Below are positions 26,931-64,000 of a DNA stretch of 64,000 nucleotides, piece after piece. The notes beneath the pieces are model-generated. The model made no database searches, was not told the DNA's origin, and was given only the letters and a program-made list of their open reading frames with translations. Both the position numbers and the translations under genes were made by a program. Every line of letters begins with the position of its first letter. The first letter of the stretch is position 1. Location of the stretch: positions 123,356 through 187,355 of the IMG/VR virus record IMGVR_UViG_3300030099_006944, one strand, 5' to 3'. This DNA is from a virus.

Positions 26931-26936
26931 AACATT

Positions 26937-28887: not shown

Positions 28888-29107
28888 CATAAACATCGGC
28901 GATTTGGTTCGCTTAAAGAAGGAGCATGACCCAGAGGGCAAGATAGGAATAGTCACAGACATTAGCCCAAGATATTCTCACCTAGTTTCACATGGAAAGA
29001 CAAAGGTTATAAGAATATATTGGCCAACCATCGATACAATCGATTGGGAATATGATTTTTTTCTAGAAAAAATTGACCCAAAGGACTTGACAGAAGATAA
29101 AGAATAG
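28880..29107 (+). CDS. Small GDLV-family protein
   Basis: 75 aa from ATG 28880. MSDINIGDLVRLKKEHDPEGKIGIVTDISPR...IRIYWPTIDTIDWEYDFFLEKID. The end of the gene contains the -35 of the next promoter. Confidence 0.72.
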   Translation: MSDINIGDLVRLKKEHDPEGKIGIVTDISPRYSHLVSHGKTKVIRIYWPTIDTIDWEYDFFLEKIDPKDLTEDKE

Positions 29108-37008: not shown

Positions 37009-37032
37009 AAACAAAAAACTTAACATTGCCCC

Positions 37033-37061
37033 TTGACAAATGTCTTGGGGCGTGTTATATT
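37033..37061 (+). promoter_or_regulatory. Class 1 promoter of dnaE with palindrome over the -35
   Basis: TTGACA at 37033-37038, 17 bp, TATATT at 37056-37061. The -35 lies inside an imperfect 24-bp palindrome, GCCCC-tt-GACA-aa-TGTC-tt-GGGGC (37028-37051), a probable operator. Confidence 0.85.
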
Positions 37062-37097
37062 ATATACATAATAAACAACAACAATCATGGAGGACAC

Positions 37098-52155: not shown

Positions 52156-52591
52156 TGTCAAAAAAATGTCAAATGTTCGTCAAATGTCAAGTGTCAAAAA
52201 GTTGTCAAATTTCTCGATTTGTCCCATAGTTCGGGCTTTGTAGAGATCTCTTGACATTTTTTTGACAAAAAACTTTACATAACTATACACTTCGCTGTAA
52301 AAAAACTTTACATAACTCCAAAAAACTTAACATAACTCGTAAAAAACTTTACATAACTATGGAGTTGCTGTAAAAATAAAATCACGGAAAACTCCCATGA
52401 TATGGTAATATAACACGTTTCCACACATTTGTCAAACATTTTCTTGACATTCTCTTGACAAAAAACTTTACATAACTATACCAATATGTAAAGGAAATGC
52501 AAAAACTTTACATAACTATACACATGCGCGATACCTTTTATTACCACATGCGAGGCGGTCAAAAAATGTCCGAAAAAGGAACAGAAAAGAT
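52156..52591. other. Noncoding AT-rich region with iterons and TTGACA motifs, candidate origin or control region
   Basis: The largest gene-free stretch of the window (to 52650). Its left 60 bp carry repeated TGTCAA (52156, 52167, 52185, 52192, 52203), i.e. TTGACA on the other strand; more TTGACA and TGTCAA lie at about 52250-52265 and 52433-52461. In the middle are six iteron-like repeats. No ORF of note fits in either direction. Confidence 0.6.
52271..52517 (+). repeat. Six copies of AACTTTACATAACT (iteron-like)
   Basis: Cores at 52271-52284, 52304-52317, 52324-52337 (one mismatch), 52345-52358, 52464-52477 and 52504-52517, nearly all preceded by four A. Spacings of 33, 20, 21, 119 and 40 bp; three of the five are close to whole helical turns. 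Same orientation throughout. Confidence 0.85.
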
Positions 52592-52896: not shown

Positions 52897-53140
52897 AAAA
52901 ATGAACCAAGAACTTAAAAAAATATTAGGCAGAGAACCAACGATCCACGAACAGATCGACATTCTTATATTGAAATCTATCAAAGATAGAGTACTAGAAC
53001 TCCAGCTAACATACCAGATAAACCCGAATGAAGAGTTGCAAGAGCAATATGAACGAGCAGTGCGCTGCATGCAAGAAGTACAGGATCGAAATCCCGAAAT
53101 CTTCGGAGGGATAGATAGCGATGGAGGTGACTATGAATAA
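52883..53140 (+). CDS. Unknown helical protein
   Basis: 85 aa. MSAIKKMNQELKKILGREPTIHEQIDILILKSIKDRVLELQLTYQINPNEELQEQYERAV, charged helices. Overlaps both neighbours. Confidence 0.6.
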   Translation: MSAIKKMNQELKKILGREPTIHEQIDILILKSIKDRVLELQLTYQINPNEELQEQYERAVRCMQEVQDRNPEIFGGIDSDGGDYE

Positions 53141-53351
53141 CTTTAAGATCGGAGACTTTGTAAAAAGCGACACGGATGATTTGTTCATCGGGCTTATCGT
53201 AAGTGAAAATTACAAAGGCTTTGAGGTTGCTTGGGACGATGGGGACTTCACCTATGGTGAGGGCAAAGGTACAATGTTTCTCCATGAGATGAAGCCGAGC
53301 GATTGGACACCAGCACTCTACAAAGCATTTTCGGACTTTTTTTGTCCTTGA
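53133..53351 (+). CDS. Small GDLV-family protein
   Basis: 72 aa from ATG 53133. MNNFKIGDFVKSDTDDLFIGLIVSENYKGFEVAWDDGDFTY: GD(F/L)V, G.IV and V.WDDG strands in family order. Its last codons contain the operator of the next unit. Confidence 0.72.
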   Translation: MNNFKIGDFVKSDTDDLFIGLIVSENYKGFEVAWDDGDFTYGEGKGTMFLHEMKPSDWTPALYKAFSDFFCP

Positions 53352-53375
53352 TTTATTTTAACAACGTGATACAAT
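53333..53375 (+). promoter_or_regulatory. Class 2 operator and promoter, unit B
   Basis: GGACTTTTTTTGTCC at 53333-53347 abuts TTGATT (53348-53353); 16 bp; TACAAT at 53370-53375 with GA before it; TATAACCCAAAC follows. Confidence 0.78.
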
Positions 53376-53408
53376 TATAGTATAACCCAAACGACCTAGG
53401 AGGTCAAC

Positions 53409-53750
53409 ATGAAAAACATAAAAGAATGTATTCACTGCGGTGAAGAGTTTAGTTTACACTGCCCTAAAAAGCGACGAGTAGGTGGCAAGATCAACGAGTG
53501 TCCCGATTGCGTCGAGGAGCTGGGTCTTGAAATCAAGAGTAGAGTTCGTGCCTTCACTACTGGTGATGGTAAAATGTCTGCTATGCAGATCCTGCGCTTC
53601 GAGAATGAAGATGATGCTGACGCTTACGGCAAGACTTGGGAAGCCAACCGTGGCTGGAACAACCAACGTCGTGGCGGTCTTAACAACGTGGCTTTCTCCA
53701 AGGTTGGAGAGAACATCGGCAACTCTAATCACAAGGGGAAAGCATCATGA
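53409..53750 (+). CDS. Zinc-ribbon-like small protein
   Basis: 113 aa. ECIHCGEEFSLHCPKKRRVGGKINECPDCVEEL has a CxxC...CxxC pair for zinc at residues 7-36. The C-terminal half is basic and Gly/Asn-rich (WNNQRRGGLNNVAFSKVGENIGNSNHKGKAS), suiting nucleic-acid binding. Leads unit B, ahead of six tandem GDLV genes. Confidence 0.68.
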   Translation: MKNIKECIHCGEEFSLHCPKKRRVGGKINECPDCVEELGLEIKSRVRAFTTGDGKMSAMQILRFENEDDADAYGKTWEANRGWNNQRRGGLNNVAFSKVGENIGNSNHKGKAS

Positions 53751-53905
53751 AATCAGGAGACTTGGTAATGACCAAAAGCACAAAAGAAATAGGTATCGTT
53801 GTCAGTGCATCTTCGACACACTGTGCAGTCTTTATTCACAAGAACAGGACGAAGAAAGTGAACCTAACATTCCGTATCCATAAGGATCTATTGGAGGTAA
53901 TATGA
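53747..53905 (+). CDS. GDLV-array protein 1 of unit B
   Basis: 52 aa: MKSGDLVMTKSTKEIGIVVSASSTHCAVF...HKDLLEVI. ATGA overlaps on both sides. The final LLEVI codons, TTGGAGGTAATATGA, form the SD and start of the next gene. Confidence 0.72.
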   Translation: MKSGDLVMTKSTKEIGIVVSASSTHCAVFIHKNRTKKVNLTFRIHKDLLEVI

Positions 53906-54042
53906 AAGTAGGTGATTTAGTTTATTATGGCTACGACAAGTCTGTCGGTGTTGTCATAGAAGTTAAGGAAAATGGAGATTGCCGTTGTGTTTTCGATGGG
54001 ATAATCTATCTATGCGCCCAGCAATCATTGGAGGTAATATGA
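53902..54042 (+). CDS. GDLV-array protein 2 of unit B
   Basis: 46 aa, the shortest member: MKVGDLVYYGYDKSVGVVIEVKENGDCRCVFDGIIYLCAQQSLEVI. ATGA overlap; coding SD for the next gene. Confidence 0.7.
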   Translation: MKVGDLVYYGYDKSVGVVIEVKENGDCRCVFDGIIYLCAQQSLEVI

Positions 54043-54236
54043 AAACAGGTGACTTGGTATCTTGGTCTTTATCTTGGGTCGTGAGTTGTTCGGACGTTAA
54101 TAAAGAAATGTATCGTAACCAACTCGGTTTCATACTACGCAAGTCAGAAGATATAACAAACTGCTGGTTTGTGCTCTGGGATGATGGAAAAACAAGTGAA
54201 GTGCATAAAGATTATTTGGAGGTAATATGCGAATAG
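54039..54236 (+). CDS. GDLV-array protein 3 of unit B
   Basis: 65 aa from ATG 54039: MKTGDLVSWSLSWVV...QLGFILRKSEDITNCWFVLWDDGKTSEVHKDYLEVICE. The full plan including W.DDG and LEVI is visible. Confidence 0.75.
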   Translation: MKTGDLVSWSLSWVVSCSDVNKEMYRNQLGFILRKSEDITNCWFVLWDDGKTSEVHKDYLEVICE

Positions 54237-54382
54237 GTGATCTAGTTAGGCATAAGGAACACCATGGTTACATGGGAATAGTAGTGGAACTCGGCTTTCG
54301 AGACATGCTTGTTGCTTGGCACGATGGAGAGTTATCTTGGACTTACAAAAGTCAGATGGAGGTGATAAATGAAAGTGGGTGA
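54227..54382 (+). CDS. GDLV-array protein 4 of unit B
   Basis: 51 aa: MRIGDLVRHKEHHGYMGIVVELGFRDMLVAWHDGELSWTYKSQMEVINESG. Starts inside the previous gene and ends inside the next. Confidence 0.72.
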   Translation: MRIGDLVRHKEHHGYMGIVVELGFRDMLVAWHDGELSWTYKSQMEVINESG

Positions 54383-54575
54383 TTTAGTTATGTGGATACA
54401 ACAAGACCACCATCATGGAATGATTGGGGTTATCGTAGATATAGAAACACCAGAGAGCAACCCAGCATTTAACAGAACCATGTATGATGTTCTGTGGGCT
54501 GATGGTGTTGTAGGGTTTGAACTCTACGCTAGCGAACTTATGGTGGTGGAAGATGAAGAAATCTCCACAGTTTGA
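54369..54575 (+). CDS. GDLV-array protein 5 of unit B
   Basis: 68 aa: MKVGDLVMWIQQDHHHGMIGVIVDIE...YDVLWADGVVGFELYASELMVVEDEEI. GGAGG 8 nt before the ATG. Confidence 0.75.
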   Translation: MKVGDLVMWIQQDHHHGMIGVIVDIETPESNPAFNRTMYDVLWADGVVGFELYASELMVVEDEEISTV

Positions 54576-54750
54576 GATCGGTGATCTCGTCGAGTTCAGA
54601 TATGACCTTTTATATCAACAGTTGGTCGGTATCGTTACCTATTACTATATGTACAACGGGCATTTGTGGTACAAAGTTCAATGGGCTAATGGCAAAGAAC
54701 AGGATATAGCCGAGATAGAGCTAAAAAAAGTAAAAACGGACAAAAAATGA
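54553..54750 (+). CDS. GDLV-array protein 6 of unit B
   Basis: 65 aa from ATG 54553 (GGAAG upstream): MKKSPQFEIGDLVEFRYDLLYQQLVGIVTYYYMYNGHLWYKVQWANGKEQDIAEIELKKV. Its 3' end carries the operator of unit C. Confidence 0.72.
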   Translation: MKKSPQFEIGDLVEFRYDLLYQQLVGIVTYYYMYNGHLWYKVQWANGKEQDIAEIELKKVKTDKK

Positions 54751-54780
54751 CCTTGCTTTTTCAGCAGGGTATGATACATT
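54738..54780 (+). promoter_or_regulatory. Class 2 operator and promoter, unit C
   Basis: GGACAAAAAATGACC at 54738-54752 (one arm mismatch) abuts TTGCTT (54753-54758); 16 bp; TACATT at 54775-54780 with GA before it. Confidence 0.76.
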
Positions 54781-54811
54781 ATTAGTATAACCAACAAACA
54801 GGAGGTGTCCA

Positions 54812-55183
54812 ATGGGATACAGATCAGACGTTGCAATAGCAATACACAAAGACTTACAAGGTGATTTCCTCACCTTCCTCAACACAGAAGAACTCATGGC
54901 TGAAATCTTCGGAGATGACTCTTACTTTAGTTTAGACAAGGACTACAAAGGCGAAGGGCACTGGCTCTTTACAGCCGAGGACATCAAGTGGTACGCAACT
55001 TGGGATGAGTTCGCAGACATTCAGATGTTCGAGAAGTTTATGGACGCTATGGAAGAGGAAGAAGAGAAAAGAGAGAAGTATCGTTTCATCCGCATTGGCG
55101 AAGAACTCGAAGATATAGAGTATCGTGGCGATTGGTACGAAAGTGAGATCCATGTCAAGCGTGAAATACAAGTGGGGTGGTAA
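54812..55183 (+). CDS. Unknown protein, MGYRSDVAIAI family
   Basis: 123 aa, CAGGAGGTGTCC SD. The start MGYRSDVAIAIHKD is a recurrent opening of phage and plasmid proteins of unknown function; the rest is Trp/Tyr/Glu-rich (WLFTAEDIKWYATWDEFADIQMFEKFMDAMEEEEEK). Leads unit C. Confidence 0.7.
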   Translation: MGYRSDVAIAIHKDLQGDFLTFLNTEELMAEIFGDDSYFSLDKDYKGEGHWLFTAEDIKWYATWDEFADIQMFEKFMDAMEEEEEKREKYRFIRIGEELEDIEYRGDWYESEIHVKREIQVGW

Positions 55184-55185
55184 TC

Positions 55186-55344
55186 ATGAATGTAGGTGAT
55201 TTAGTAAGATACAAAGATGATGATGACATCGGTGTTATCATGTGGATTGGTACAACCAAACTTAGTTATTATATTCAGTGGGCTGACGGCACAGATGGCT
55301 TCCACATAGCAAGCGAATTCGAGGTGATAAATGAAAGTGGGTGA
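55186..55344 (+). CDS. GDLV-array protein 1 of unit C
   Basis: 52 aa: MNVGDLVRYKDDDDIGVIMWIGTTKLSYYIQWADGTDGFHIASEFEVINESG. 2 nt after the previous gene; the C-terminal EFEVI codons give the next SD. Confidence 0.74.
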   Translation: MNVGDLVRYKDDDDIGVIMWIGTTKLSYYIQWADGTDGFHIASEFEVINESG

Positions 55345-55495
55345 TTTAGTAAGTCCCAAGCACACAAAGTGGCTATTTGGTATTGTCGTTAGGCAACCAA
55401 TGGAACACGGAGTACTATGGATGATCCAGTGGAGCAATGAAAAGCGTAGTTTGGAACGAAAAGAGAACTTGGAGGTGATACATGGAAGTAGGTGA
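55331..55495 (+). CDS. GDLV-array protein 2 of unit C
   Basis: 54 aa: MKVGDLVSPKHTKWLFGIVVRQPMEHGVLWMIQWSNEKRSLERKENLEVIHGSR. It overlaps both neighbours by 14 nt, so the GAGGTGATA(A/C)ATG junction has been duplicated with it. Confidence 0.74.
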   Translation: MKVGDLVSPKHTKWLFGIVVRQPMEHGVLWMIQWSNEKRSLERKENLEVIHGSR

Positions 55496-55631
55496 TTTAA
55501 TTAAGAGGCGTAATAATGGAGACTTGGCGATAGTTCTCAAAATCTCCAAGCGGAGAGTGAAGATAATGCGTCTTTCCTGTGGAAACACCCAGTGCGTCTG
55601 GGATTATGAATATGAGGTGATAAATGGCTAA
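55482..55631 (+). CDS. GDLV-array protein 3 of unit C
   Basis: 49 aa: MEVGDLIKRRNNGDLAIVLKISKRRVKIMRLSCGNTQCVWDYEYEVING. Basic middle; the W.DG strand has become VWDYEY. Confidence 0.7.
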   Translation: MEVGDLIKRRNNGDLAIVLKISKRRVKIMRLSCGNTQCVWDYEYEVING

Positions 55632-55923
55632 CATATATTGGAACAAAGAGAAAGCCCCGTTTGACGAGGCAGAAGAAAAAATAAAACCCTTGGTGATAGA
55701 GTGTACGGATAGTGCCTTCTTCATTAAGAAACATTCGGGAGACTGCGGTACTACCATGAATGTATATGCGGAGACTGATGATCCAGAAGTCTCCTCATGG
55801 CATACTCGCCTCCCAGCCCAGTTCATGGGCTGGCGTGTGTTGATGTACAACTGCCCCACGGGCTACATAAAAGCGTTTCTTGACGTTAAGAAGGAGGATA
55901 ACGATGATGTTTCAGGTTGGTGA
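55624..55923 (+). CDS. Unknown small protein
   Basis: 99 aa: MANIYWNKEKAPFDEAEEKIKPLVIECTDSAFFIKKHSGDCGTTMNVYAETDD. Not of the GDLV plan. Its start uses the GAGGTGATAAATG junction of the preceding paralogue. Confidence 0.62.
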   Translation: MANIYWNKEKAPFDEAEEKIKPLVIECTDSAFFIKKHSGDCGTTMNVYAETDDPEVSSWHTRLPAQFMGWRVLMYNCPTGYIKAFLDVKKEDNDDVSGW

Positions 55924-56101
55924 TTTAGTAAGGATTAAGTATGGCTTCACAGACAGCGACAGCAATGAGTTCGATTGGATAGGCATGATACTCTCCTACC
56001 GTGGCAAGAGTGGGCTAGACAACGAGGACGAGTGGATAGTGCAGTGGGCACATGCTGCACATGAAGCAGTCGAATACGGCTACTACTTGGAGGTAATATG
56101 A
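55904..56101 (+). CDS. GDLV-array protein 4 of unit C
   Basis: 65 aa (ATG 55904 or 55907, AAGGAGG upstream): MMFQVGDLVRIKYGFTDSDSNEFDWIGMILSYRGK...WIVQWAHAAHEAVEYGYYLEVI. Ends with the LEVI coding-SD. Confidence 0.73.
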   Translation: MMFQVGDLVRIKYGFTDSDSNEFDWIGMILSYRGKSGLDNEDEWIVQWAHAAHEAVEYGYYLEVI

Positions 56102-56247
56102 AAGTAGGTGATTTGGTCAGAATGACCCAGTATCACTACTGGGGTCTGGGTATAGTGGTGGCTCTCGATGAAGATGTAGCCGCATTTATCCGTTGGGCTG
56201 ATGGTCGCGGCGGGGGGAGATACATAGAAGATTTGGAGAAACTATGA
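56098..56247 (+). CDS. GDLV-array protein 5 of unit C
   Basis: 49 aa: MKVGDLVRMTQYHYWGLGIVVALDEDVAAFIRWADGRGGGRYIEDLEKL. ATGA overlaps on both sides. Confidence 0.74.
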   Translation: MKVGDLVRMTQYHYWGLGIVVALDEDVAAFIRWADGRGGGRYIEDLEKL

Positions 56248-56519
56248 TTAAAATAAACAGAAATAAAAAAGCCATTCAGATCGGGGAACTGGTCATTGTA
56301 AAGAAATGGGTAACAAACAAGGGCTATGTTTATTCCGACAGGATTGGAATAGTCATGGCTGATGAAGGTGTCGATGAACTCGGGCAAGAACAATGGGGTC
56401 GTTGGCACGTAGCGTTGGAGAATGGAGATTACATTGGCTGTTCGTCCAACGAGATCGAAGTAATACAGGAGGTGGACGATGGATCTGATAGAACTACAGC
56501 TCTCAGTGAGAACCATTGA
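56244..56519 (+). CDS. GDLV-array protein 6 of unit C (GELV variant)
   Basis: 91 aa: MIKINRNKKAIQIGELVIVKKWVTNKGYVYSDRIGIVMADEGVDELGQEQWGRWHVALENGDYIGCSSNEIEVIQEVDDG. Family plan with N- and C-terminal extensions; overlaps the next gene by 41 nt. Confidence 0.7.
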   Translation: MIKINRNKKAIQIGELVIVKKWVTNKGYVYSDRIGIVMADEGVDELGQEQWGRWHVALENGDYIGCSSNEIEVIQEVDDGSDRTTALSENH

Positions 56520-56685
56520 TATATTGCAAAAGGTTGGCGTTTGGCATGTTGAGGACATCTTAGAGAAAATGAAGACAGACCCCACCAGTATGACACTAGC
56601 CTTGGCTAAAATAAATGCAAAAGACTTCGCCGAGATTACGGGGGAGATAGGAAAACGGACAAAAGTTGTCCTCGACAATCCTTGA
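56479..56685 (+). CDS. RNA polymerase alpha C-terminal-domain-like protein
   Basis: 68 aa, CAGGAGGTGG SD. MDLIELQLSVRTIDILQKVGVWHVEDILEKMKTDPTSMTLALAKINAKDFAEITGEIGKRTKVVLDNP follows the alpha-CTD pattern IEELxLSVRxxNxLKxxGIxTVxDLL...L..I.N.G.KSLxEI, with an insertion near residue 33. The alpha-CTD binds UP elements, CRP and other activators. A free copy could compete with or replace the host domain at the class 2 promoters; only the motif is seen. It ends in the operator of unit D. Confidence 0.6.
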   Translation: MDLIELQLSVRTIDILQKVGVWHVEDILEKMKTDPTSMTLALAKINAKDFAEITGEIGKRTKVVLDNP

Positions 56686-56699
56686 AAACAGGATACATT
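56657..56699 (+). promoter_or_regulatory. Class 2 operator and promoter, unit D
   Basis: GGACAAAAGTTGTCC at 56657-56671 abuts TCGACA (56672-56677); 16 bp; TACATT at 56694-56699 with GA before it; CATAACCCAAAC follows. Confidence 0.8.
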
Positions 56700-56731
56700 A
56701 TTAACATAACCCAAACGACTTGGAGGTCGAA

Positions 56732-57703
56732 ATGAAAATATACGAAGATCGCGATAGCAATAAACGAACAACTCATTGCCCTACCTGTGGCAATGAAGGT
56801 CACATGTGGATGACTTGCCCTGTTCCAGCCAAAATGATGGAGTTAAAGAAACAAGGCAAAGAGCCTGACATAAGCCTGTTTTCCACTTGGTATCAGGGTT
56901 CTTACTCCCGTAGGGATACTAATGGTAAACTTGTTTATCACGACCGCATTTTTAGCCAAATGAGATCAGCCTACGACAAACAACAACGTCGGATAGAGTA
57001 CAGAAAAGAAAAGAAAGCCCGTAAAGAACGGCTCTACGGCAAACCTGCAAAGCGTAAAGTTTCTTGTGGGTTCTGCGGAGAGACTGGGCATAACCGTAGG
57101 CACTGTGATCTAATGGTCAACTTTGTTGATGATCTCGAACGAGCCTCTCAGAACTATCGCAAGCAGTTCTACGAGCGTTTTGTCAAAGGTATGGGCTTCG
57201 CCGAAGGTGCTCTACTCAGCTTAAGTGCAAGTCATTTCATGATTAACAACCGATGGATAGAAGATTGGTCTGGTATTGGAGTTATCACTAGAATAAGTTG
57301 GGAAGATGTTAACATGGGTCTAACTATGAATAGTTGGGATTACAAATCCACTTTGGAAGTGGACTGCCTTATCGATGGAGAAACCTATACAATAAAAAAT
57401 CCCTTTTCCCACCTAAGCGACAAAGCACTCAACGGCGATGTAGCTGATCTGTTCAGCAGCGGTAGCAGATGGGGTGCTCGAATAGACAGCGTACTAGCAC
57501 CTAGCGAGAACATTCCTTCGGAAGAATGGTTTAACGATGGTTACACCGAGTGTTGGGAGTGGATAGCAAAGAACAAATCTTTGTCAGATGTTTCAGCCTA
57601 CCTATCTCCCCTGATAGCCAAGTGGCATCCATCCCGTAGAGGTCGCAATGCAGGAAAGTTGAACTACCGATTGTCCCAGTATGGCTATAAAAGACCAAAG
57701 TAG
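56732..57703 (+). CDS. Double CCHC zinc-knuckle protein (paralogue 1)
   Basis: 323 aa from ATG 56732 (TTGGAGGTCGAA). Two CCHC knuckles: CPTCGNEGHMWMTC near residues 16-29 and CGFCGETGHNRRHC near 110-123, with a Lys/Arg-rich linker. The C-terminal 190 residues (FVDDLERASQNYRKQFYERFVKGMGFAEGALLSL...WGARIDSVLAP.E...EWFNDGYTE) match those of the protein at 58842. CCHC knuckles bind single-stranded RNA or DNA. The unit holds this gene alone. Confidence 0.8.
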   Translation: MKIYEDRDSNKRTTHCPTCGNEGHMWMTCPVPAKMMELKKQGKEPDISLFSTWYQGSYSRRDTNGKLVYHDRIFSQMRSAYDKQQRRIEYRKEKKARKERLYGKPAKRKVSCGFCGETGHNRRHCDLMVNFVDDLERASQNYRKQFYERFVKGMGFAEGALLSLSASHFMINNRWIEDWSGIGVITRISWEDVNMGLTMNSWDYKSTLEVDCLIDGETYTIKNPFSHLSDKALNGDVADLFSSGSRWGARIDSVLAPSENIPSEEWFNDGYTECWEWIAKNKSLSDVSAYLSPLIAKWHPSRRGRNAGKLNYRLSQYGYKRPK

Positions 57704-57745
57704 GACATTTTCTGTCCTTGCTTTTTCCGAATACCATGATACATT
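57703..57745 (+). promoter_or_regulatory. Class 2 operator and promoter, unit E
   Basis: GGACATTTTCTGTCC at 57703-57717 (overlapping the previous stop) abuts TTGCTT (57718-57723); 16 bp; TACATT at 57740-57745 with GA before it; TATAACCCAAAC follows. Confidence 0.8.
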
Positions 57746-57775
57746 TATAGTATAACCCAAACAGCGGAGGACAAA

Positions 57776-58003
57776 ATGCTGGTAGAAGTTGGAGATATGA
57801 TATATTGGTTAGATGGTGCTGGTGAAACCGACATAGGGTGGGTAGTTTCTGTGGAAAGACGTAGTCCCCTCGGATACGGCGAACTAGAAAACCTCATTCA
57901 TATAAGGTGGTTATTCAAGGAAGAACGCAAGAAGCGCATCTGGGAACAAACTATTAAGGAAAACAGTTTTATAACACTAATAAAAGGAGGTCAGCATGGC
58001 TGA
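57776..58003 (+). CDS. GDLV-family protein (GDMI variant)
   Basis: 75 aa: MLVEVGDMIYWLDGAGETDIGWVVSVERRSPLGYGELENLIHIRWLFKEERKKRIWEQTI. GCGGAGGACAAA SD. First gene of unit E. Confidence 0.7.
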   Translation: MLVEVGDMIYWLDGAGETDIGWVVSVERRSPLGYGELENLIHIRWLFKEERKKRIWEQTIKENSFITLIKGGQHG

Positions 58004-58277
58004 ACCAATGGACAAAATAGAAGTAATAATGAAAACTGCCAAAATGCTGGCAGATGAAAACCGCGGAGAATGGTCAGGTGATGTTCATGAGTTTGCCACA
58101 GCAAGCGCATATATCACCTCTGACGAGCGTTTGTGGCTGACGAGCCATGATGTTAAGGTGTTCCACAAAGAACTCAAAGATGGGGCTTTTGTGAGCGAAT
58201 ATGCCTATGTTTCAGCCTCATATGCAGATGGGCAACCTCTGCTAGTCGTAACAGATGTAGACACAGGGAAGGTGTAG
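57996..58277 (+). CDS. Unknown protein
   Basis: 93 aa, AAAAGGAGGTCAGC SD. MAEPMDKIEVIMKTAKMLADENRGEWSGDVHEFATASAYITSDERLWLTSHDVKVFHKELKDG, no motif recognised. Confidence 0.62.
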   Translation: MAEPMDKIEVIMKTAKMLADENRGEWSGDVHEFATASAYITSDERLWLTSHDVKVFHKELKDGAFVSEYAYVSASYADGQPLLVVTDVDTGKV

Positions 58278-58278
58278 C

Positions 58279-58485
58279 ATGTACAGATACAAAATAGGGG
58301 AACTGGTCGAACTGTCTGCGGCTGGTCGGAAAAGAGATCACAACGACAAGGTTTATGACATGATAGGAATGGTTCTCAGGATAGACAACATGGAAAAATA
58401 CCCCTACATTATCCAGTGGTTCGGAAATGTTCCATATGGAACATTTCCGATGAAAGAATATGAGATCAAACGGGTTCGAGGATAG
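58279..58485 (+). CDS. GDLV-family protein (GELV variant, pair member 1)
   Basis: 68 aa: MYRYKIGELVELSAAGRKRDHNDKVYDMIGMVLRIDNMEKYPYIIQWFGNVPYGTFPMKEYEIKRVRG. Very close to the protein at 60354 (GELVELS.AGRK...MIG/WGMV, Y.IQW, FPM..YEIKR.RG), a duplication between units E and G. Confidence 0.74.
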   Translation: MYRYKIGELVELSAAGRKRDHNDKVYDMIGMVLRIDNMEKYPYIIQWFGNVPYGTFPMKEYEIKRVRG

Positions 58486-58502
58486 CGAGTGAATAGCAAA
58501 GC

Positions 58503-58545
58503 GGACATTTTTTGTCCTCGACAAATCGTCGGAACGTGATACATT
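58503..58545 (+). promoter_or_regulatory. Class 2 operator and promoter, unit F
   Basis: Perfect GGACATTTTTTGTCC at 58503-58517 abuts TCGACA (58518-58523); 16 bp; TACATT at 58540-58545 with GA before it; CATAACCCAAAA follows. Confidence 0.82.
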
Positions 58546-58576
58546 ACTAACATAACCCAAAACAACGGAGGCAACA

Positions 58577-58840
58577 ATGCCAAAACGTAAACCAAAAATG
58601 ACTGATTTAGAGGCTACAATGATAGCTGAAGGCGCACAGGAAGCAGAAAGCGATGAGCAATACATAGCCGCTTGGCAACATCTTATAGACACGGGACTTG
58701 CATGGTCTTTGCAAGGTTTCTTCGGTCGCACCGCTTCTGTTATGATACAGAACGGCTTGTGTTACATGCCTATCAAGAAGCAACCTAAAAAGCCAAAGTC
58801 CACAGGTGGACAAACCCCTAGAACTCCAGAGGAAAAGTAA
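58577..58840 (+). CDS. Unknown protein, MTDLEATMIAEG family
   Basis: 87 aa, ACGGAGGCAAC SD. KMTDLEATMIAEGAQEAESDEQYIAAWQHLIDTGLAWSLQGFFGRTASVMIQNGLC is a helical domain of a kind recurrent in phages, unknown in function; the tail is Lys/Pro-rich. Confidence 0.68.
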   Translation: MPKRKPKMTDLEATMIAEGAQEAESDEQYIAAWQHLIDTGLAWSLQGFFGRTASVMIQNGLCYMPIKKQPKKPKSTGGQTPRTPEEK

Positions 58841-58841
58841 A

Positions 58842-59738
58842 ATGAATATATATAACAACGATGGAAAATCATCCAGCAGACGAAAATCAAAATGTTCCTA
58901 CTGCCGAGCAGAAGGGCACAACGCAACCGAGTGTCCCCGTGTAGCCGAGGACTATGCTTGGTTCTCCCAGTCCCCTCCCGTGATACCCATAGGGGTAAGT
59001 AAGTCTACTGCTACCTGCCAATGGTACAGCAACCCGAAGTATTGGGGAGAGTGGTATCAAAAGTGCATTGACGCTCATGCAAAGCAAGAAGCCGCTAAAA
59101 AGAAAATCAAGTCCTCTCCTGCTGGGAGTGCTAGGTCAGCCCCCAAGTGTGGGTTCTGTGGCTCGATACACCACAACCGCCGCAACTGTGATGCTATGAC
59201 AGACTACACAGCCGATGCTATAGCTGCTAATCGAAACTGGCGAAGGGCTTTCTATGAAAAGTTTGTACAAGAAATGGGTATCTCCGAAGGAGCGTTGTTG
59301 AATGTTGCACAAAAGCAAGGATATGGCAACCCCGACAAAGAGACAATCGCTGTCGTTACAGCAGTCAACTGGGATGAACTGTCGTTATTCTGTGGTTCTC
59401 CTAACACCAGCGGATACTGCTATCGTGACGAGAACTACAAGCAGTATCTCAAAGTCACTGTTCAAATAGGGAGCGACACTCATACCTTGAACTTTGAGAA
59501 AGGCATTGATCACCGTATATCCAACAAAACCAAGAGGAACTTGGTCAAGTTCTCGGGACAACGATACGGCTGGGGCAATCCGCATTTCATATCAGTACTC
59601 TCAGCAGCACCAACTCCCCTTGGTGCGGAGTGGATAAATGAAGGGCATGCCAAGGCTATGGAGTTCTTAACGAAAAAACGCTCCAAAGCAAAACTCGATG
59701 AAGCTGATGTGACCGACCTTATCAAACTATGGCTGTAA
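58842..59738 (+). CDS. Double CCHC zinc-knuckle protein (paralogue 2)
   Basis: 298 aa from ATG 58842 (GAGGAAAAGTAAA). CSYCRAEGHNATEC (residues about 18-31) and CGFCGSIHHNRRNC (about 104-117), then ADAIAANRNWRRAFYEKFVQEMGISEGALLNV...WGNPHFISVLSAAPTPLGAEWINEGHAKA. Same architecture as the gene at 56732 with clear divergence, so an old duplication. Probable nucleic-acid binding. Confidence 0.8.
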   Translation: MNIYNNDGKSSSRRKSKCSYCRAEGHNATECPRVAEDYAWFSQSPPVIPIGVSKSTATCQWYSNPKYWGEWYQKCIDAHAKQEAAKKKIKSSPAGSARSAPKCGFCGSIHHNRRNCDAMTDYTADAIAANRNWRRAFYEKFVQEMGISEGALLNVAQKQGYGNPDKETIAVVTAVNWDELSLFCGSPNTSGYCYRDENYKQYLKVTVQIGSDTHTLNFEKGIDHRISNKTKRNLVKFSGQRYGWGNPHFISVLSAAPTPLGAEWINEGHAKAMEFLTKKRSKAKLDEADVTDLIKLWL

Positions 59739-59742
59739 AATC

Positions 59743-59785
59743 GGTCATTTTCTGTCCTCGACAAATCTTCAAATCGTGATACATT
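59743..59785 (+). promoter_or_regulatory. Class 2 operator and promoter, unit G
   Basis: GGTCATTTTCTGTCC at 59743-59757 abuts TCGACA (59758-59763); 16 bp; TACATT at 59780-59785 with GA before it; TATAACCCAAAC follows. Confidence 0.8.
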
Positions 59786-59816
59786 ACTAATATAACCCAA
59801 ACAACAGGAGGCTCTT

Positions 59817-60014
59817 ATGGACTACCAAACTCGAAATGGAGAACAGGCTGGTGACCTTGTTCACTGGACTGACTACACCGCTAACTACTTTGAAGATCCT
59901 CAGGATTACATTGGAATTATCCTAGACTACTCCCCTAGAGAGGACATGTTCATTGTTCTCTGTGAAGGAAAGCAGTGCTCTTGGCTTGCTTGGCAATGTG
60001 AGGTGGTGTCATGA
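59817..60014 (+). CDS. GDLV-array protein 1 of unit G
   Basis: 65 aa: MDYQTRNGEQAGDLVHWTDYTANYFEDPQDYIGIILDYSPREDMFIVLCEGKQCSWLAWQCEVVS. N-terminal extension before GDLV. Ends with an ATGA overlap. Confidence 0.7.
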   Translation: MDYQTRNGEQAGDLVHWTDYTANYFEDPQDYIGIILDYSPREDMFIVLCEGKQCSWLAWQCEVVS

Positions 60015-60172
60015 AGATAGGCGATTTAGTAAAAGGCAAGAAGAACGAAATACTCGGCTATGTAACGAACAATCGGATCTCTTATGGGGAAAAATGGGTC
60101 GTAGTCTATTGGCTCAAAGTAGAACTCCAATCAATACAGCATATCGACGACTTGGAGGTAATATGCAAATAG
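60011..60172 (+). CDS. GDLV-array protein 2 of unit G
   Basis: 53 aa: MKIGDLVKGKKNEILGYVTNNRISYGEKWVVVYWLKVELQSIQHIDDLEVICK. LEVI coding-SD for the next gene. Confidence 0.73.
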   Translation: MKIGDLVKGKKNEILGYVTNNRISYGEKWVVVYWLKVELQSIQHIDDLEVICK

Positions 60173-60366
60173 GTGATTTAGTAGATGATGGGTTTGGTTG
60201 CTTCGGTGTAATCACTGCGCTTGGATGGATTTTTCCTGAGAGTGTAAGCGGAAAGATCGCGGCTTATCATGTCCACTTCCCAACAGATCCCGCCCTCAAC
60301 GGGTGGTATGAATACAATGACTTAAAACTTATTTCCCGAACTGTGGAGGAAACATGCAAAAAATAA
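60163..60366 (+). CDS. GDLV-array protein 3 of unit G
   Basis: 67 aa from ATG 60163: MQIGDLVDDGFGCFGVITALGWIFPESVSGKIAAYHVHFPTDPALNGWYEYNDLKLISRTVEETCKK. Family plan with a longer central loop. Confidence 0.73.
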   Translation: MQIGDLVDDGFGCFGVITALGWIFPESVSGKIAAYHVHFPTDPALNGWYEYNDLKLISRTVEETCKK

Positions 60367-60569
60367 AAAATGGAGAACTGGTCGAACTTTCTTCAGCTGG
60401 TCGAAAAATGAAACAGAACGATGAGGTGGTAGGGCTGTGGGGCATGGTCATGGAATACGACAGTACAAATCGACACCCTTATAGAATACAGTGGTATAAA
60501 GCCGATGGAACTACAAAGAAGTTCCCTATGGCTCGATATGAAATCAAAAGATTTAGAGGTGTGAAATGA
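60354..60569 (+). CDS. GDLV-family protein (GELV variant, pair member 2)
   Basis: 71 aa: MQKIKNGELVELSSAGRKMKQNDEVVGLWGMVMEYDSTNRHPYRIQWYKADGTTKKFPMARYEIKRFRGVK. Closest relative of the protein at 58279. Confidence 0.74.
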   Translation: MQKIKNGELVELSSAGRKMKQNDEVVGLWGMVMEYDSTNRHPYRIQWYKADGTTKKFPMARYEIKRFRGVK

Positions 60570-60742
60570 AGGTTGGAGATTTAGTGAGATATGGTGGAAG
60601 CAAAGATTGCTTGGGGATTGTCACGAGGGTCGTAACATCAAAAGCAGTTGACAGAAGCGCATGCGCTGTACGCTGGGCGAATGGAGTGACAAGTCACCAT
60701 TCAACAAAGTGGCTCATCCCCGTGAAGCCGGAGAACAAATGA
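60566..60742 (+). CDS. GDLV-array protein 5 of unit G
   Basis: 58 aa: MKVGDLVRYGGSKDCLGIVTRVVTSKAVDRSACAVRWANGVTSHHSTKWLIPVKPENK. ATGA overlap at the start; last gene of the unit. Confidence 0.74.
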   Translation: MKVGDLVRYGGSKDCLGIVTRVVTSKAVDRSACAVRWANGVTSHHSTKWLIPVKPENK

Positions 60743-60746
60743 AAGC

Positions 60747-60789
60747 GGTCATTTTCTGTCCTTGACTTTTTCTCACAATCGGATAGATT
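60747..60789 (+). promoter_or_regulatory. Class 2 operator and promoter, unit H
   Basis: GGTCATTTTCTGTCC at 60747-60761 abuts TTGACT (60762-60767); 16 bp; TAGATT at 60784-60789 with GA before it; TGTAACCCAAAC follows. Confidence 0.77.
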
Positions 60790-60819
60790 ATTATTGTAAC
60801 CCAAACAAACGGAGGTCTT

Positions 60820-61011
60820 ATGGACTACCAAATCGGCTCAAAACTAAAAGTAAACTTTTCTGGAAAGACAGAGATTGTCTATGTTATAGAAAAGAGTGAT
60901 AACATCTTCGACACAGGCTCTAAGGGATTTGTAGCGTACATCGAGTGTGATGGCTACACTGTTGACTGCTGGGCTTATGACTTTGATATATTGGAGGTTC
61001 TATGCAAGTAG
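60820..61011 (+). CDS. GDLV-like protein of unit H
   Basis: 63 aa: MDYQIGSKLKVNFSGKTEIVYVIEKSDNIFDTGSKGFVAYIECDGYTVDCWAYDFDILEVLCK. IGSKL in place of GDLV, with the LEV coding-SD end. Confidence 0.68.
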   Translation: MDYQIGSKLKVNFSGKTEIVYVIEKSDNIFDTGSKGFVAYIECDGYTVDCWAYDFDILEVLCK

Positions 61012-61187
61012 GGGATTTAGTAAAATGCGCTTTGGATATCTATGGAATAGGTATTGTTATCAAAACTGGGGTGAAAGTAGGCTACAGGCAAAGAATAAAA
61101 GTCCAGTGGCTCAATCCTCCCGAATGGCTCTTGACGAGTGGCGGGAACATAGCCAGCCACTTTCCCAGTAACTTGGAGGCAATATGA
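61002..61187 (+). CDS. GDLV-array protein of unit H
   Basis: 61 aa: MQVGDLVKCALDIYGIGIVIKTGVKVGYRQRIKVQWLNPPEWLLTSGGNIASHFPSNLEAI. Final LEAI codons provide the next SD. Confidence 0.73.
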   Translation: MQVGDLVKCALDIYGIGIVIKTGVKVGYRQRIKVQWLNPPEWLLTSGGNIASHFPSNLEAI

Positions 61188-61405
61188 TTTTTAATGTAAC
61201 AAAGTACGTTTATGTACTCCAAATACGATATAGCGGTAATGAGGACGATGTTTATGTTTTCTCCACAAGAGAAAAGGCAGAAGCAATGGTCTATGAGTTC
61301 TTTGAGCACATCGAAGAACCGAGAATGAAACTCGATGACTTTGAGGAATACTTATTCTCTCAGGACATTGGCTACTTTACTATTGAAAGACAAGAAATAC
61401 AATAA
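61184..61405 (+). CDS. Unknown small protein
   Basis: 73 aa: MIFNVTKYVYVLQIRYSGNEDDVYVFSTREKAEAMVYEFFEHIEEPRMKLDDFEEYLFSQ. A strand-strand-helix plan; YVFSTREKAE is a recurrent phage motif of small unknown proteins. Start at the ATGA of the previous gene. Confidence 0.62.
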   Translation: MIFNVTKYVYVLQIRYSGNEDDVYVFSTREKAEAMVYEFFEHIEEPRMKLDDFEEYLFSQDIGYFTIERQEIQ

Positions 61406-61415
61406 GGAGGCTCTC

Positions 61416-61613
61416 ATGAGCAATCAAATAAAACTAACAATCGATATATCCGATGAACTTTTGAATAAAATAATAACCGTGATAGCCCTGTCTGGTGCTA
61501 CTCCCCCAACCCCGATGGGCGGTGTACCTATGGTAATGCAGAAAAGCCCAGCTAAAGAACCAGAGCGTCCTTCTATGGGCTTCCAGCCTCCAACAAAGGA
61601 AGGTGACAAATGA
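61416..61613 (+). CDS. Unknown small protein with Pro-rich tail
   Basis: 65 aa from ATG 61416 (AAGGAGGCTCTC). MSNQIKLTIDISDELLNKIITVIALSGATPPTPMGGVPMVMQKSPAKEPERPSMGFQPPTKEGDK, one strand-helix unit and a Pro-rich tail. Confidence 0.6.
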   Translation: MSNQIKLTIDISDELLNKIITVIALSGATPPTPMGGVPMVMQKSPAKEPERPSMGFQPPTKEGDK

Positions 61614-61792
61614 CCCCTTTTGAGAAAGCCGCCTACAACGTCAAGCAGTTGGCTATAAGACTGAGCCTGTATCAGTTAATGTTACAGACAGTCGAAGACA
61701 CCAAGGACTTAGATGAAAAAGAGGCTGATTTAGTGTGGGAAGTTATTTTGGCAATGCTGGAAGCCTCCGACCTTGGGGGAGAAATCAACTAG
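61610..61792 (+). CDS. Unknown helical protein
   Basis: 60 aa: MTPFEKAAYNVKQLAIRLSLYQLMLQTVEDTKDLDEKEADLVWEVILAMLEASDLGGEIN. ATGA overlap; two helices. Confidence 0.6.
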   Translation: MTPFEKAAYNVKQLAIRLSLYQLMLQTVEDTKDLDEKEADLVWEVILAMLEASDLGGEIN

Positions 61793-61793
61793 T

Positions 61794-61846
61794 GGACATT
61801 TTTTGACCCTTTTTGACTTGACAAATCAGCTAGAACCTGATAAGCT
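61794..61846 (+). promoter_or_regulatory. Class 2 operator and promoter, unit I (variant spacing)
   Basis: GGACATTTTTTGACC at 61794-61808, then a 9-bp insertion before TTGACA (61818-61823); 17 bp; TAAGCT at 61841-61846 with GA before it; TATAACCCAAAC follows. The one copy in which the palindrome does not abut the -35. Confidence 0.68.
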
Positions 61847-61878
61847 ATAGATATAACCCAAACAGATGGAGGTCGAAA

Positions 61879-62577
61879 ATGACCATTACCGTGAAACAAT
61901 TAGTTAAAGCCGCCGAAAATGCTAACAAACTCGGCAACCTTCGCGATTGCAGTACCCTAGCAGACTTGGCTGGTAGTGTTAAGAAGTGGGGGAAACTCAC
62001 CTCTCGTCAAGCCGAGTTCGCAGCGGCTCTTATCGAGCGCAACTCAAACGAGAAGGCTAGTAAGATTGATGAAGAGCGTGAGAACCACCGTATCAAGTGG
62101 CAAGAGGATGGTGCTTATCGCGAATGGGTTCTGTTCTTGGCTACATTCTTTGCTACTTCTGGACAGACAGCATATCAGCACCATATCCACAACAGGCAGC
62201 GCAATGCTCGTAGGGTTCTCCAAGCCTCCCGTGATGCGGAAGGTGGTGTACCTAGCCTCGATGATTGTAATCGCTTGACCACTTCCAAGTTAGCCCCAAG
62301 ACTTCGAGATACTTTTGAGAAGCCCCTACTCTACTCCGTAGGTGACCTAGTACAGGTTCGTGCTAGTGAGTTGCGCTACGGAGAAAGAGCCAAAGGCTTG
62401 GGAGAGCAAATGGGCTGGATCATAGACACCAACGCTCGCAACGTCCATCGTGTCGCGACTTATAGCAAGACCAAGGGTGGAACTCGGATCTACAAAGTTA
62501 TGTTCCCTTCGGGAGAACAGTACCGAGAAGAACGACAACTTAAACTTGTATCCAGAAAGAACCACAACAAGGAGTAG
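61879..62577 (+). CDS. Protein with C-terminal GDLV domain
   Basis: 232 aa, ATGGAGGTCGAAA SD. Residues 1-70 include CSTLADLAGSVKKWGKLTSRQAEFAAALIERN, a helical motif seen in phage and plasmid proteins that process DNA. Residues about 151-226 (YSVGDLVQVRASELRYGERAKGLGEQMGWIIDT...TRIYKVMFPSGEQYREERQLKLVS) are a full GDLV domain. It is the only long gene in which the domain is fused to another, a clue to function. Confidence 0.7.
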   Translation: MTITVKQLVKAAENANKLGNLRDCSTLADLAGSVKKWGKLTSRQAEFAAALIERNSNEKASKIDEERENHRIKWQEDGAYREWVLFLATFFATSGQTAYQHHIHNRQRNARRVLQASRDAEGGVPSLDDCNRLTTSKLAPRLRDTFEKPLLYSVGDLVQVRASELRYGERAKGLGEQMGWIIDTNARNVHRVATYSKTKGGTRIYKVMFPSGEQYREERQLKLVSRKNHNKE

Positions 62578-62579
62578 CC

Positions 62580-62762
62580 ATGGAAATAGGAACTTTAGTT
62601 ACCCACATCCACGATCAATACGAAGGTATAGGGATAGTGATACATGACGACCAACGAGAATACACAGAGGGCGAGAAATACTCAATGGTTACAGTCCATT
62701 GGCTCGATGGCGTTGGGGTTGGTCTTTACTGGACTGATGAATTGGAGGCAATATGCAATTAG
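62580..62762 (+). CDS. GDLV-like protein of unit I
   Basis: 60 aa: MEIGTLVTHIHDQYEGIGIVIHDDQREYTEGEKYSMVTVHWLDGVGVGLYWTDELEAICN. SD AAGGAGTAGCC; GTLV variant with W.DG and LEAI end. Confidence 0.72.
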   Translation: MEIGTLVTHIHDQYEGIGIVIHDDQREYTEGEKYSMVTVHWLDGVGVGLYWTDELEAICN

Positions 62763-62968
62763 AACTTGGACAGCTTATCATAGACGCACACGAAGGCTAC
62801 CGAGATACAGGCGTAGTTATCGAAATCTACGAAGATTGCTATGGTGACAACATTTACAGCATTTTTTGGGTTTGTCCTCGGGATAGAGGGCACTACACCA
62901 CTACCCTAGCATACACAGAAGAAGAACTCGATATGGAATACTCCCACTGCTTCGAGGTCATACGATAA
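62753..62968 (+). CDS. GDLV-like protein of unit I
   Basis: 71 aa: MQLELGQLIIDAHEGYRDTGVVIEIYEDCYGDNIYSIFWVCPRDRGHYTTTLAYTEEELDMEYSHCFEVIR. GQLI variant; ends F-EVI. Confidence 0.7.
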   Translation: MQLELGQLIIDAHEGYRDTGVVIEIYEDCYGDNIYSIFWVCPRDRGHYTTTLAYTEEELDMEYSHCFEVIR

Positions 62969-62969
62969 C

Positions 62970-63012
62970 GGACATTTTTTGTCCTTGACTTTTCACCACA
63001 AAATGATACATT
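62970..63012 (+). promoter_or_regulatory. Class 2 operator and promoter, unit J
   Basis: Perfect GGACATTTTTTGTCC at 62970-62984 abuts TTGACT (62985-62990); 16 bp; TACATT at 63007-63012 with GA before it; TATAACCGAAAC follows. Confidence 0.82.
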
Positions 63013-63043
63013 ACTTATATAACCGAAACGACTGGAGGACATT

Positions 63044-63514: not shown

Positions 63515-63518
63515 AAAC

Positions 63519-63561
63519 GGACATTTTTTGTCCTTTACAAATCCCTCCAACGTGATACATT
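63519..63561 (+). promoter_or_regulatory. Class 2 operator and promoter, unit K
   Basis: Perfect GGACATTTTTTGTCC at 63519-63533 abuts TTTACA (63534-63539); 16 bp; TACATT at 63556-63561 with GA before it. Confidence 0.82.
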
Positions 63562-63571
63562 ATAGTTGTGA

Positions 63572-63598
63572 GGGAGAGATAAACACTCTTTCTTTTTT
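63572..63598 (+). terminator. Attenuator-like hairpin in the MoxR leader
   Basis: GGGAGAG (63572-63578) pairs with CTCTTTC (63586-63592) with two wobble pairs, then six T. It lies just after the expected start (about 63568) and before the conserved ATAACCC of the leader. A second hairpin GTCCT-TTCG-AGGAC at 63623-63636 has a UUCG loop. Confidence 0.55.
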
Positions 63599-63656
63599 CA
63601 ATCACTATTTATTATATAACCCGTCCTTTCGAGGACACTTCTAATGGAGGTCAATC

Positions 63657-64000
63657 ATGGCTATTGACTTTAAGACACTCAACTCTGTACTTCCTTTCAT
63701 TCTTGACGCTAAGTTCCCTGTTCTTATCCGTGGTCGGCACGGTATCGGTAAATCCGCTATCGTATATCAGATTGCAAAAGACCGTGGTCTGCCTGTCATT
63801 GAGCGTCGTGCCTCTCAAATGACCGAAGGTGACTTACTTGGTCTACCGAAGGTAGAAGGTAACGTCACAAAGTGGCTTGCTCCCGAATGGTTACACCAAG
63901 CATGCAATGAGCCAGCAATCCTATTCCTCGATGAAGTAGACCGTGCAACTATGGAAGTTCGCCAAGGTATCTTCGAGTTGTGCGACAGCCGGAAGATCGC
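63657..64000 (+). CDS. MoxR-type AAA ATPase (5' part, cut by window end)
   Basis: ATG 63657 with ATGGAGGTCAATC. MAIDFKTLNSVLPFILDAKFPVLIRGRHGIGKSAIVYQIAKDRGLPVIERRASQMTEGDLLGLPKVEGNVTKWLAPEWL then AILFLDEVDRATMEVRQGIFELCDSRKI. Walker A is RGRHGIGKS, Walker B ILFLDEVDR, and the sensor region follows. MoxR ATPases remodel protein complexes, typically with a VWA-domain partner encoded downstream, which the window does not reach. Confidence 0.88.
   Translation, partial: MAIDFKTLNSVLPFILDAKFPVLIRGRHGIGKSAIVYQIAKDRGLPVIERRASQMTEGDLLGLPKVEGNVTKWLAPEWLHQACNEPAILFLDEVDRATMEVRQGIFELCDSRKI

Follow-up and report, generated by a model that had tools for sequence, protein, structure and literature searches.

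How does a phage come to hold some two dozen tiny, related genes in a single run, and how could such a run be reordered without breaking its neighbours? The question is raised by the virus record IMGVR_UViG_3300030099_006944 of IMG/VR, the last 64 kb of which (record positions 123,356–187,355 of 187,355 bp) form the window analysed here; coordinates are those of the window unless stated otherwise. A family hidden Markov model (HMM) seeded from 15 hand-picked members and then iterated, with reversed proteins as control, retrieved 33 open reading frames (ORFs) at E < 0.01 in its first pass (no reversed protein below E = 1) and 40 ORFs after iteration (best reversed-protein match E = 0.044). Exactly 24 members, all on the plus strand, were located at 53,121–62,968, namely 23 stand-alone proteins of 46–91 aa and the C-terminal domain of a 232-aa protein encoded at 61,879. 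The initial annotation had described about 24 small genes sharing one plan at 53.1–63.0 kb, with widely varying loops and one copy fused in the 61,879 protein; the HMM recovered this array with almost no reversed-sequence signal, recruited the fused domain at E = 6e-10, and loop length and content did differ among members. Of about nine scattered copies also claimed, five passed the threshold (starts at 11,520, 11,726, 28,425, 28,660 and 28,880), while candidates at 22.4, 48.6 and 51.4–52.2 kb fell below it. Elsewhere in the same 187-kb record, seven members were found at 3.4–5.6 kb, three at 21.4–22.0 kb and one at 45.0 kb (record positions). In other contigs (L058), the sequences matching the window end and the record start form one uninterrupted stretch, so the array probably spans the contig ends.

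On balance, we consider it reasonably probable that this locus is a hyperplastic region of exchangeable mini-barrel cassettes, probably encoding early host-directed effectors, which are shuffled at a multi-purpose overlap between neighbouring genes.

Predicted small barrels encoded by overlapping genes

An AlphaFold2 model of member 5 (members are numbered in array order; 115 relatives aligned) reached a mean predicted local distance difference test score (pLDDT) of 94.9 and displayed a five-strand barrel, with strands at residues 6–9, 16–22, 26–31, 36–40 and 44–48 and a short turn before the last of them. For the C-terminal domain of the 61,879 protein, a divergent member, the same five strands were predicted at modest model confidence; they follow a helical part, and this N-terminal part had no sequence relative in Pfam, PHROGs or PDB. 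Foldseek matched the member 5 model to SPT5 KOW5 (template modelling (TM) score 0.80 at 1.5 Å), the PHF19 Tudor domain (TM 0.80) and, at TM ~0.8, PHF1 Tudor, PWWP and HERC2 domains, as well as to unnamed viral proteins (best TM 0.91 at 37% identity). In BFVD, a single block of UniProt accessions (A0A516L.../A0A516M...) supplied about a dozen of the top structural matches; it probably represents one deposited marine virome rich in members of the family.

Alignment of the family profile to PDB sequences pointed the same way (uL24c, E = 8e-4; SPT5, 0.018; eS4, about 0.02–0.07; NusG, 0.19–0.3). KOW (PF00467) was the best-supported Pfam family, with 3 of 115 members matching (best E = 0.002) and 112 of 115 missing it at E 0.05. 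Searches with single members gave no match above cut-off in PHROGs or, for the first ten window members, in Pfam; among the 115 members scanned against PHROGs, weak matches at E < 1e-3 were limited to phrog_1690 (5 members) and phrog_9237 (2 members), and most members matched no PHROG. The barrel guessed in the initial annotation therefore agrees with the models of both a canonical and a divergent member, with Foldseek and with the PDB profile search: the predicted family fold is an SH3/KOW-like five-strand barrel, which in itself establishes no function.

Direct repeats within the array were mostly of two kinds, the border between one member and the next, and a promoter/stem-loop block. At the border, the upstream gene ends in TTG GAG GTA ATA TGA (L-E-V-I-stop), which holds the Shine-Dalgarno sequence GGAGG of the next gene, and the next ATG overlaps the stop codon. 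In the commonest form, with the consensus TTGGAGGTnATCAGTGAAAGTCGGTGATTTGGT, the upstream protein ends in LEVISESR, the downstream gene starts with GTG/ATG-AAA-GTC-GGT-GAT, and the upstream stop TGA lies inside the downstream GGT-GAT (G-D codons), so that the two genes overlap by 14 nt. For instance, TGGAGGTGATAAATGAAAGTGGGTGATTTAGT (54,357–54,388, plus strand) comprises the end and stop of member 5 and, for member 6, its Shine-Dalgarno sequence, its start and the codons for MKVGDLV. A large sample of 1560 distinct members was collected from 241 searched loci (the record itself, IMG/VR contigs and four cellular records); among its ~840 member-member overlaps, 637 (~76%) were of 14 nt, 103 of 4 nt and 36 of 10 nt. 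The 14-nt overlap already accounted for 193 of ~300 cases in a first sample, for which members had been picked by their MKVGDLV start, independently of the junction.

The overlap constrains the sequence at the DNA level. The Gly codon was GGT in 188 of 192 members overlapped upstream by 14 nt (98%), compared with 49% where no gene overlapped upstream and 28% at interior glycines. A terminal hydrophobic-x-x-hydrophobic pattern was present in 93% of members with a following gene and in 85% of those without one, whereas Glu at the second place of the terminal strand dropped from 81% with a family gene overlapping downstream to 35% without, and the Glu of LEVI was coded GAG in 609 of 632 against 60 of 129 cases, respectively. 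The last strand is kept with or without a next gene and the Glu/GAG is tied to the overlap, so the strand belongs to the fold, and E-V-I is mostly the ribosome-binding site of whichever gene follows. What the initial annotation called a terminal LEVI is largely a translation signal read in frame: its hydrophobic last strand is general, its E-V-I letters track the following gene, and a purely protein-level motif is rejected by the Glu difference and the GAG bias. More generally, residues conserved at the end of small overlapping genes can reflect a ribosome-binding site instead of a protein motif. We hold this anatomy of cassette and junction with great confidence.

The same spacing also joins members to genes outside the family (28 further 14-nt cases). 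In one locus (L161, near 3,244, minus strand), a small protein unrelated to the barrel starts with MKVGDL, and three homologues of it in other loci lack MKVGDL; this single example suggests that unrelated genes can acquire the junction.

Probable exchange of single genes at the junction

The initial annotation ascribed the array to tandem duplication, by which it would have arisen and would grow mainly in place, with fast divergence afterwards. Its single strand and head-to-tail order agree with this, as do clear local paralogues, although these are few: the genes at 58,279 and 60,354 are 51% identical, and two members of another locus (L002) 42%. Nevertheless, the best match came from a different locus for 1459 members and from the member's own locus for only 49, and near-identical relatives occupy different neighbourhoods. 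Among family pairs of 90–98% identity between loci, the DNA 40–240 nt downstream was homologous in 18 of 56 (32%), compared with 18 of 21 pairs of other genes of at least 110 aa from the same loci (86%; p = 3e-5 against the family, where p-values serve only as a guide) and 6 of 8 pairs of small non-family genes. At 75–90% identity, downstream homology was kept in 16% of family pairs (25/156), 38% of pairs of genes of at least 110 aa and 57% of small non-family pairs (17/30; p = 8e-6 against the family). The difference was largely gone at 60–75% identity, because by then the controls too have lost synteny. Nor was there a burst of divergence between close relatives (pooled dN/dS, the ratio of non-synonymous to synonymous substitution rates, 0.165). 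Tandem duplication as the main source of the array is thus mostly wrong, and we regard it as largely refuted and very improbable.

The closest relative found, a 191,696-bp contig with 29 members (L223), carries a scrambled order: the best relatives of 55,186 and 55,331 stand in reverse order, the relative of 53,902 has shifted position, and the relative of 62,753 adjoins that of 60,354. The rearranged members are joined there by the same overlap types, and the junction at 54,357–54,388 has 31–32-nt matches to non-orthologous junctions of L223. Breakpoints of exchange were sharp. In 72 pairs with different downstream neighbours, identity stayed at 0.84–0.94 up to the stop codon (0.94 just before it) and was at a background of 0.28 from +10; 57 pairs with different upstream neighbours gave a mirror-image profile at the junction. 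We consider it highly likely that members are shuffled at the level of the junction.

Whether the junction is also the physical crossover site is a narrower matter, for which the chances appear about even. The junction might be kept only for compact, coupled translation, with exchange proceeding through long homologous tracts, through promoter elements or illegitimately, and with selection sparing those products whose junctions are intact. Overlapping genes are common in phages, and the median longest exact run shared by two 14-nt junctions of one locus is just 13 nt, both of which fit such an account. In addition, passages of PMC4503421 that cite Arbiol 2010 and Comeau 2014 attribute shuffling in the hyperplastic regions of T4-like phages to promoter/stem-loop elements (PeSL), and elements of this type are present here. 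This second kind of repeat in the array, ~70 nt long, consists of a GGACA-TTTTT-TGTCC stem-loop, a TTGAC-like hexamer, ~16 nt, a TACATT-like hexamer and ATAACCC. Repeated stem-loops with a sigma70-like promoter thus stand among small genes, as in PeSL regions; nhmmer located ten copies at 53.3–63.6 kb and four strong ones at 0.8–4.1 kb of the contig, and no comparable copy elsewhere in the window. The exchange breakpoints, however, did not coincide with these elements: in the 14-nt-joined pairs examined they lay at the coding overlap inside operons, and the comparison with L223 revealed single genes swapped inside operons, between promoter elements. Family genes also shuffle more than the small neighbouring non-family genes of the same loci, and some non-orthologous junctions share 31–32 nt at 94–100% identity with L223. 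An origin of the pattern through selection on products alone consequently seems unlikely to us, and crossover within the repeated junction is the account carried forward.

Several points weigh against our overall interpretation. The pairs compared are not phylogenetically independent, and the loci were gathered by pattern. A sharp breakpoint at the junction is equally expected if exchange takes place elsewhere and only junction-preserving products survive. The promoter elements are consensus matches, and Foldseek against PDB returned no E below 1e-3 (best 6e-3), the fold being generic.

Constraint on the proteins and their possible role

Different members of one array are mostly less than 40% identical and range in net charge from −8 to +6 (median 0), yet close relatives are conserved: the pooled dN/dS given above was calculated from interior codons over 149 pairs, and it exceeded 1 in only 1 of 118 informative pairs. 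Within a locus the members are almost all co-oriented (99.7% on the majority strand). Purifying selection within each lineage, together with the differing sequence, charge and loops, suggests that each lineage is kept for a specific role and that these roles differ.

A uniform role has nevertheless to be considered, in which all members are KOW-type ligands of nucleic acid, ribosome or RNA polymerase with one kind of target. The PDB profile matches to KOW domains and the position of KOW as best-supported Pfam family are in its favour, and so is a precedent from T4: its early protein MotB, for which an N-terminal KOW domain is predicted, binds DNA and alters H-NS binding (PMC7827196). No sequence relation to MotB was found in the family (hhalign probability 0.8%), and the family HMM retrieved none of the ORFs in the first 30 kb of T4 at E < 0.05. 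With the charge range arguing against one uniform nucleic-acid binder, loops variable in length and content, and almost all members missing the Pfam KOW model, a single kind of target appears rather improbable.

We favour instead a set of diversified host-directed binders, each probably with its own target in host takeover or counter-defence. Variant binders acting as anti-defence proteins or host-factor inhibitors, as proposed in the initial annotation, are compatible with the purifying selection, the lack of a uniform charge and the region-limited promoter-like elements, and we infer early expression of the array genes. An effector library is therefore a candidate function, to which we would assign neither more nor less than an even chance; its most likely use, by analogy with many small early T4 genes, would be early interference with host proteins, including defences.

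In the model that we propose, a cassette is one gene for a stand-alone, predicted SH3-like barrel of 45–90 residues, and cassettes are joined by a ~34-nt overlap with three jobs: the GGAGG in the last-strand codons of gene n serves as Shine-Dalgarno sequence of gene n+1, the ATG/GTG starts the latter, and its opening codons (M-K-V-G-D) hold, in another frame, the stop of gene n (14-, 10- or 4-nt overlap). As the same sequence stands at both ends of a cassette, any member could follow any other with no loss of translation. Recombination in mixed infections would join cassettes at the repeated junction and so swap single genes between phages, and only joints keeping Shine-Dalgarno sequence, start and stop in register would survive. 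The ~14 stem-loop/promoter elements in the regions examined would divide the array into operons, and the outcome would be a compact operon of coupled small genes, the products of which share a frame and present different surfaces.

Such an arrangement would give a concrete answer to how phages maintain large, fast-changing stocks of tiny orphan genes, with one small fold yielding endless variants and one overlap allowing insertion, removal and re-ordering without breaking neighbours. More tentatively, marine phages may share an open pool of mini-barrel effectors, in which a universal overlap acts as ribosome-binding site, start, stop and crossover, anti-host arrays are rebuilt gene by gene, and unrelated small genes are captured and can gain an MKVGDL start. 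Given that the family is large (the 1560 distinct members came from about 190 of the loci), largely unnamed in Pfam and PHROGs and composed of lineages under selection, it can serve directly as a catalogue of candidate proteins for host takeover or counter-defence.

Composition of the array, phage context and comparison with known systems

Member 1 (53,133–53,351; 72 aa, MNNFKIGDFV start, HMM E = 7e-8) has an L223 relative of 66% identity. Member 2 (53,747–53,905; 52 aa, E = 1e-9), ending in LEVI, overlaps member 3 by ATGA (4 nt), and its L223 relative is 92% identical but followed by a different gene. After member 3 (53,902–54,042; 46 aa, LEVI end, 4-nt overlap, E = 4e-12) comes member 4 (54,039–54,236; 65 aa, LEVICE end, 10-nt overlap, E = 5e-16), the stop TAG of which sits within the ATA-GGT codons of member 5 (54,227–54,382; 51 aa, MEVINESG end). 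The latter is joined by the 14-nt overlap described above, its stop TGA within GGT-GAT, to member 6 (54,369–54,575; 68 aa, E = 4e-18), and member 7 follows (54,553–54,750; 65 aa, E = 1e-14). Overlaps of 14 nt end members 8 (55,186–55,344; 52 aa, E = 5e-17) and 9 (55,331–55,495; 54 aa, E = 2e-15), while member 10 (55,482–55,631; 49 aa, E = 5e-12) overlaps a non-family gene at 55,624 by 8 nt. Members 11 (55,907–56,101; 64 aa, E = 3e-14) and 12 (56,098–56,247; 49 aa, E = 1e-14) each end in a 4-nt overlap, ahead of member 13 (56,244–56,519; 91 aa, E = 6e-11; L223 relative 86% identical).

Member 14 (57,776–58,003; 75 aa, E = 5e-9) is followed by member 15 (58,279–58,485; 68 aa, the local paralogue of member 19). 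Member 16 (59,817–60,014; 65 aa, 4-nt overlap, E = 2e-9) leads to member 17 (60,011–60,172; 53 aa, LEVICK, 10-nt overlap, E = 9e-12), member 18 (60,163–60,366; 67 aa, E = 1e-5; L223 relative 68% identical), member 19 (60,354–60,569; 71 aa, 4-nt overlap, E = 1e-11) and member 20 (60,566–60,742; 58 aa), which has no overlapping downstream gene and ends in LIPVKPENK instead of LEVI. Member 21 (61,002–61,187; 61 aa, LEAI end) overlaps a non-family gene by 4 nt. In the fused member 22 (61,879–62,577), AlphaFold2 placed the helical part at residues 5–145 and the barrel at 157–225. The run closes with member 23 (62,580–62,762; 60 aa, LEAICN, 10-nt overlap, E = 5e-14) and member 24 (62,753–62,968; 71 aa, E = 1e-11; L223 relative 70%), whose CFEVIR end precedes a promoter element. 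Among the outlying members, also on the plus strand, two at 11,520–11,729 and 11,726–11,923 share a 4-nt overlap, and the three at 28,425–29,107 are joined by 14-nt and 8-nt overlaps.

The ten promoter/stem-loop elements of the window, again on the plus strand, were found at 53,333–53,407 (repeat family D1/D2; nhmmer E = 7e-17), 54,738–54,812 (4e-14), 56,657–56,730 (3e-16), 57,703–57,773 (3e-18), 58,503–58,576 (2e-19), 59,743–59,816 (8e-20), 60,747–60,819 (6e-18), 61,794–61,873 (3e-13), 62,970–63,041 (3e-19) and 63,517–63,582 (2e-13).

A paralogous pair of proteins with paired zinc-knuckle motifs is encoded within the array (56,720–57,703 and 58,806–59,738). The first contains a weak barrel-like stretch in its middle; this being sub-threshold, neither protein was counted as a member. 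Other non-family neighbours gave no functional hint beyond DUF7417/phrog_3908 and weak zinc-finger or endonuclease VII matches. Just before the array, a non-coding stretch (52,268–52,523) carries six iteron-like AAAAACTTTACATAACTATAC-like repeats, also seen in L223. At 63,645–64,000 an AAA ATPase gene leaves the window end and apparently resumes at the record start (L001 1–2101), followed by a DUF2201 metallopeptidase/VWA gene, which implies that the two record ends are adjacent. Both genes are conserved beside many arrays, and a DUF2201 metallopeptidase/VWA homologue was found near the array in 36 of 121 member-rich loci.

The phage itself is distantly T4-like, with a T4-type major capsid protein Gp23 and a gp32-type single-strand binding protein, beside which it encodes a DNA polymerase III alpha subunit of bacterial type that includes a PHP domain (37,026–40,553). 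It also encodes a RecA-like protein identified by eye (14,722–15,834) and, at 26,599–27,008, a transfer-messenger RNA (tag ANNNLYFEEALAA) with tRNA-Gly(gcc) directly after it. A further gene specifies a GroEL/Cpn60-family chaperonin (46,419–47,987; Pfam E = 4e-65), and several more contigs with arrays contain DNA homologous to it. The junction pattern is virus-specific: a strict 31-nt form occurred in 115 IMG/VR stretches. In 257 Gb of bacterial and archaeal genomes a looser 30-nt form was detected in just four stretches, all in metagenome-assembled genomes (MAGs), with 3–7 members per locus; one of these loci (L240, 6658–7862) holds three members with the 14-nt junction in a 2.85-Mb WOR-3 bacterium chromosome MAG and may be prophage, host gene or assembly artefact. 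Neither protein nor junction-DNA searches of the cultured-phage collection yielded a convincing relative.

Hyperplastic regions, overlapping genes and exchange at border sequences are each already known separately, and the combination of one fold family with one multi-purpose coding overlap reused along an array was not found in the limited open-access literature searched. With the KOW/SH3-like barrels of uL24, the NusG C-terminal domain and SPT5, the members share the predicted fold, the Gly-Asp turn, the second-strand Gly and the strand plan, but they are stand-alone mini-proteins, mostly with no KOW motif recognisable by Pfam. The PHROGs weakly matched by a few members, phrog_1690 and phrog_9237, have no assigned function, and no array or junction is described there. 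T4 MotB likewise combines a KOW-like domain with a T4-like phage and, as an early protein, offers a precedent in kind for a host-directed role; unlike the members, it is a two-domain DNA-binding protein, with no sequence similarity to them.

The PeSL cassettes of T4-like phages, as the passages mentioned above present them, resemble this locus in the many small genes, the repeated stem-loop/promoter between short operons and the shuffling. Here, in contrast, single genes move within operons, the breakpoint is a coding start/stop overlap and not an intergenic promoter cassette, and the genes moved belong to one fold family. Lambdoid phages are shuffled at boundary sequences, and the two systems are alike in that genes are exchanged where short sequences are conserved at their borders. 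The border described here differs in being embedded in a pair of overlapping reading frames, in occurring up to about twelve times per genome and in linking paralogues of one fold.

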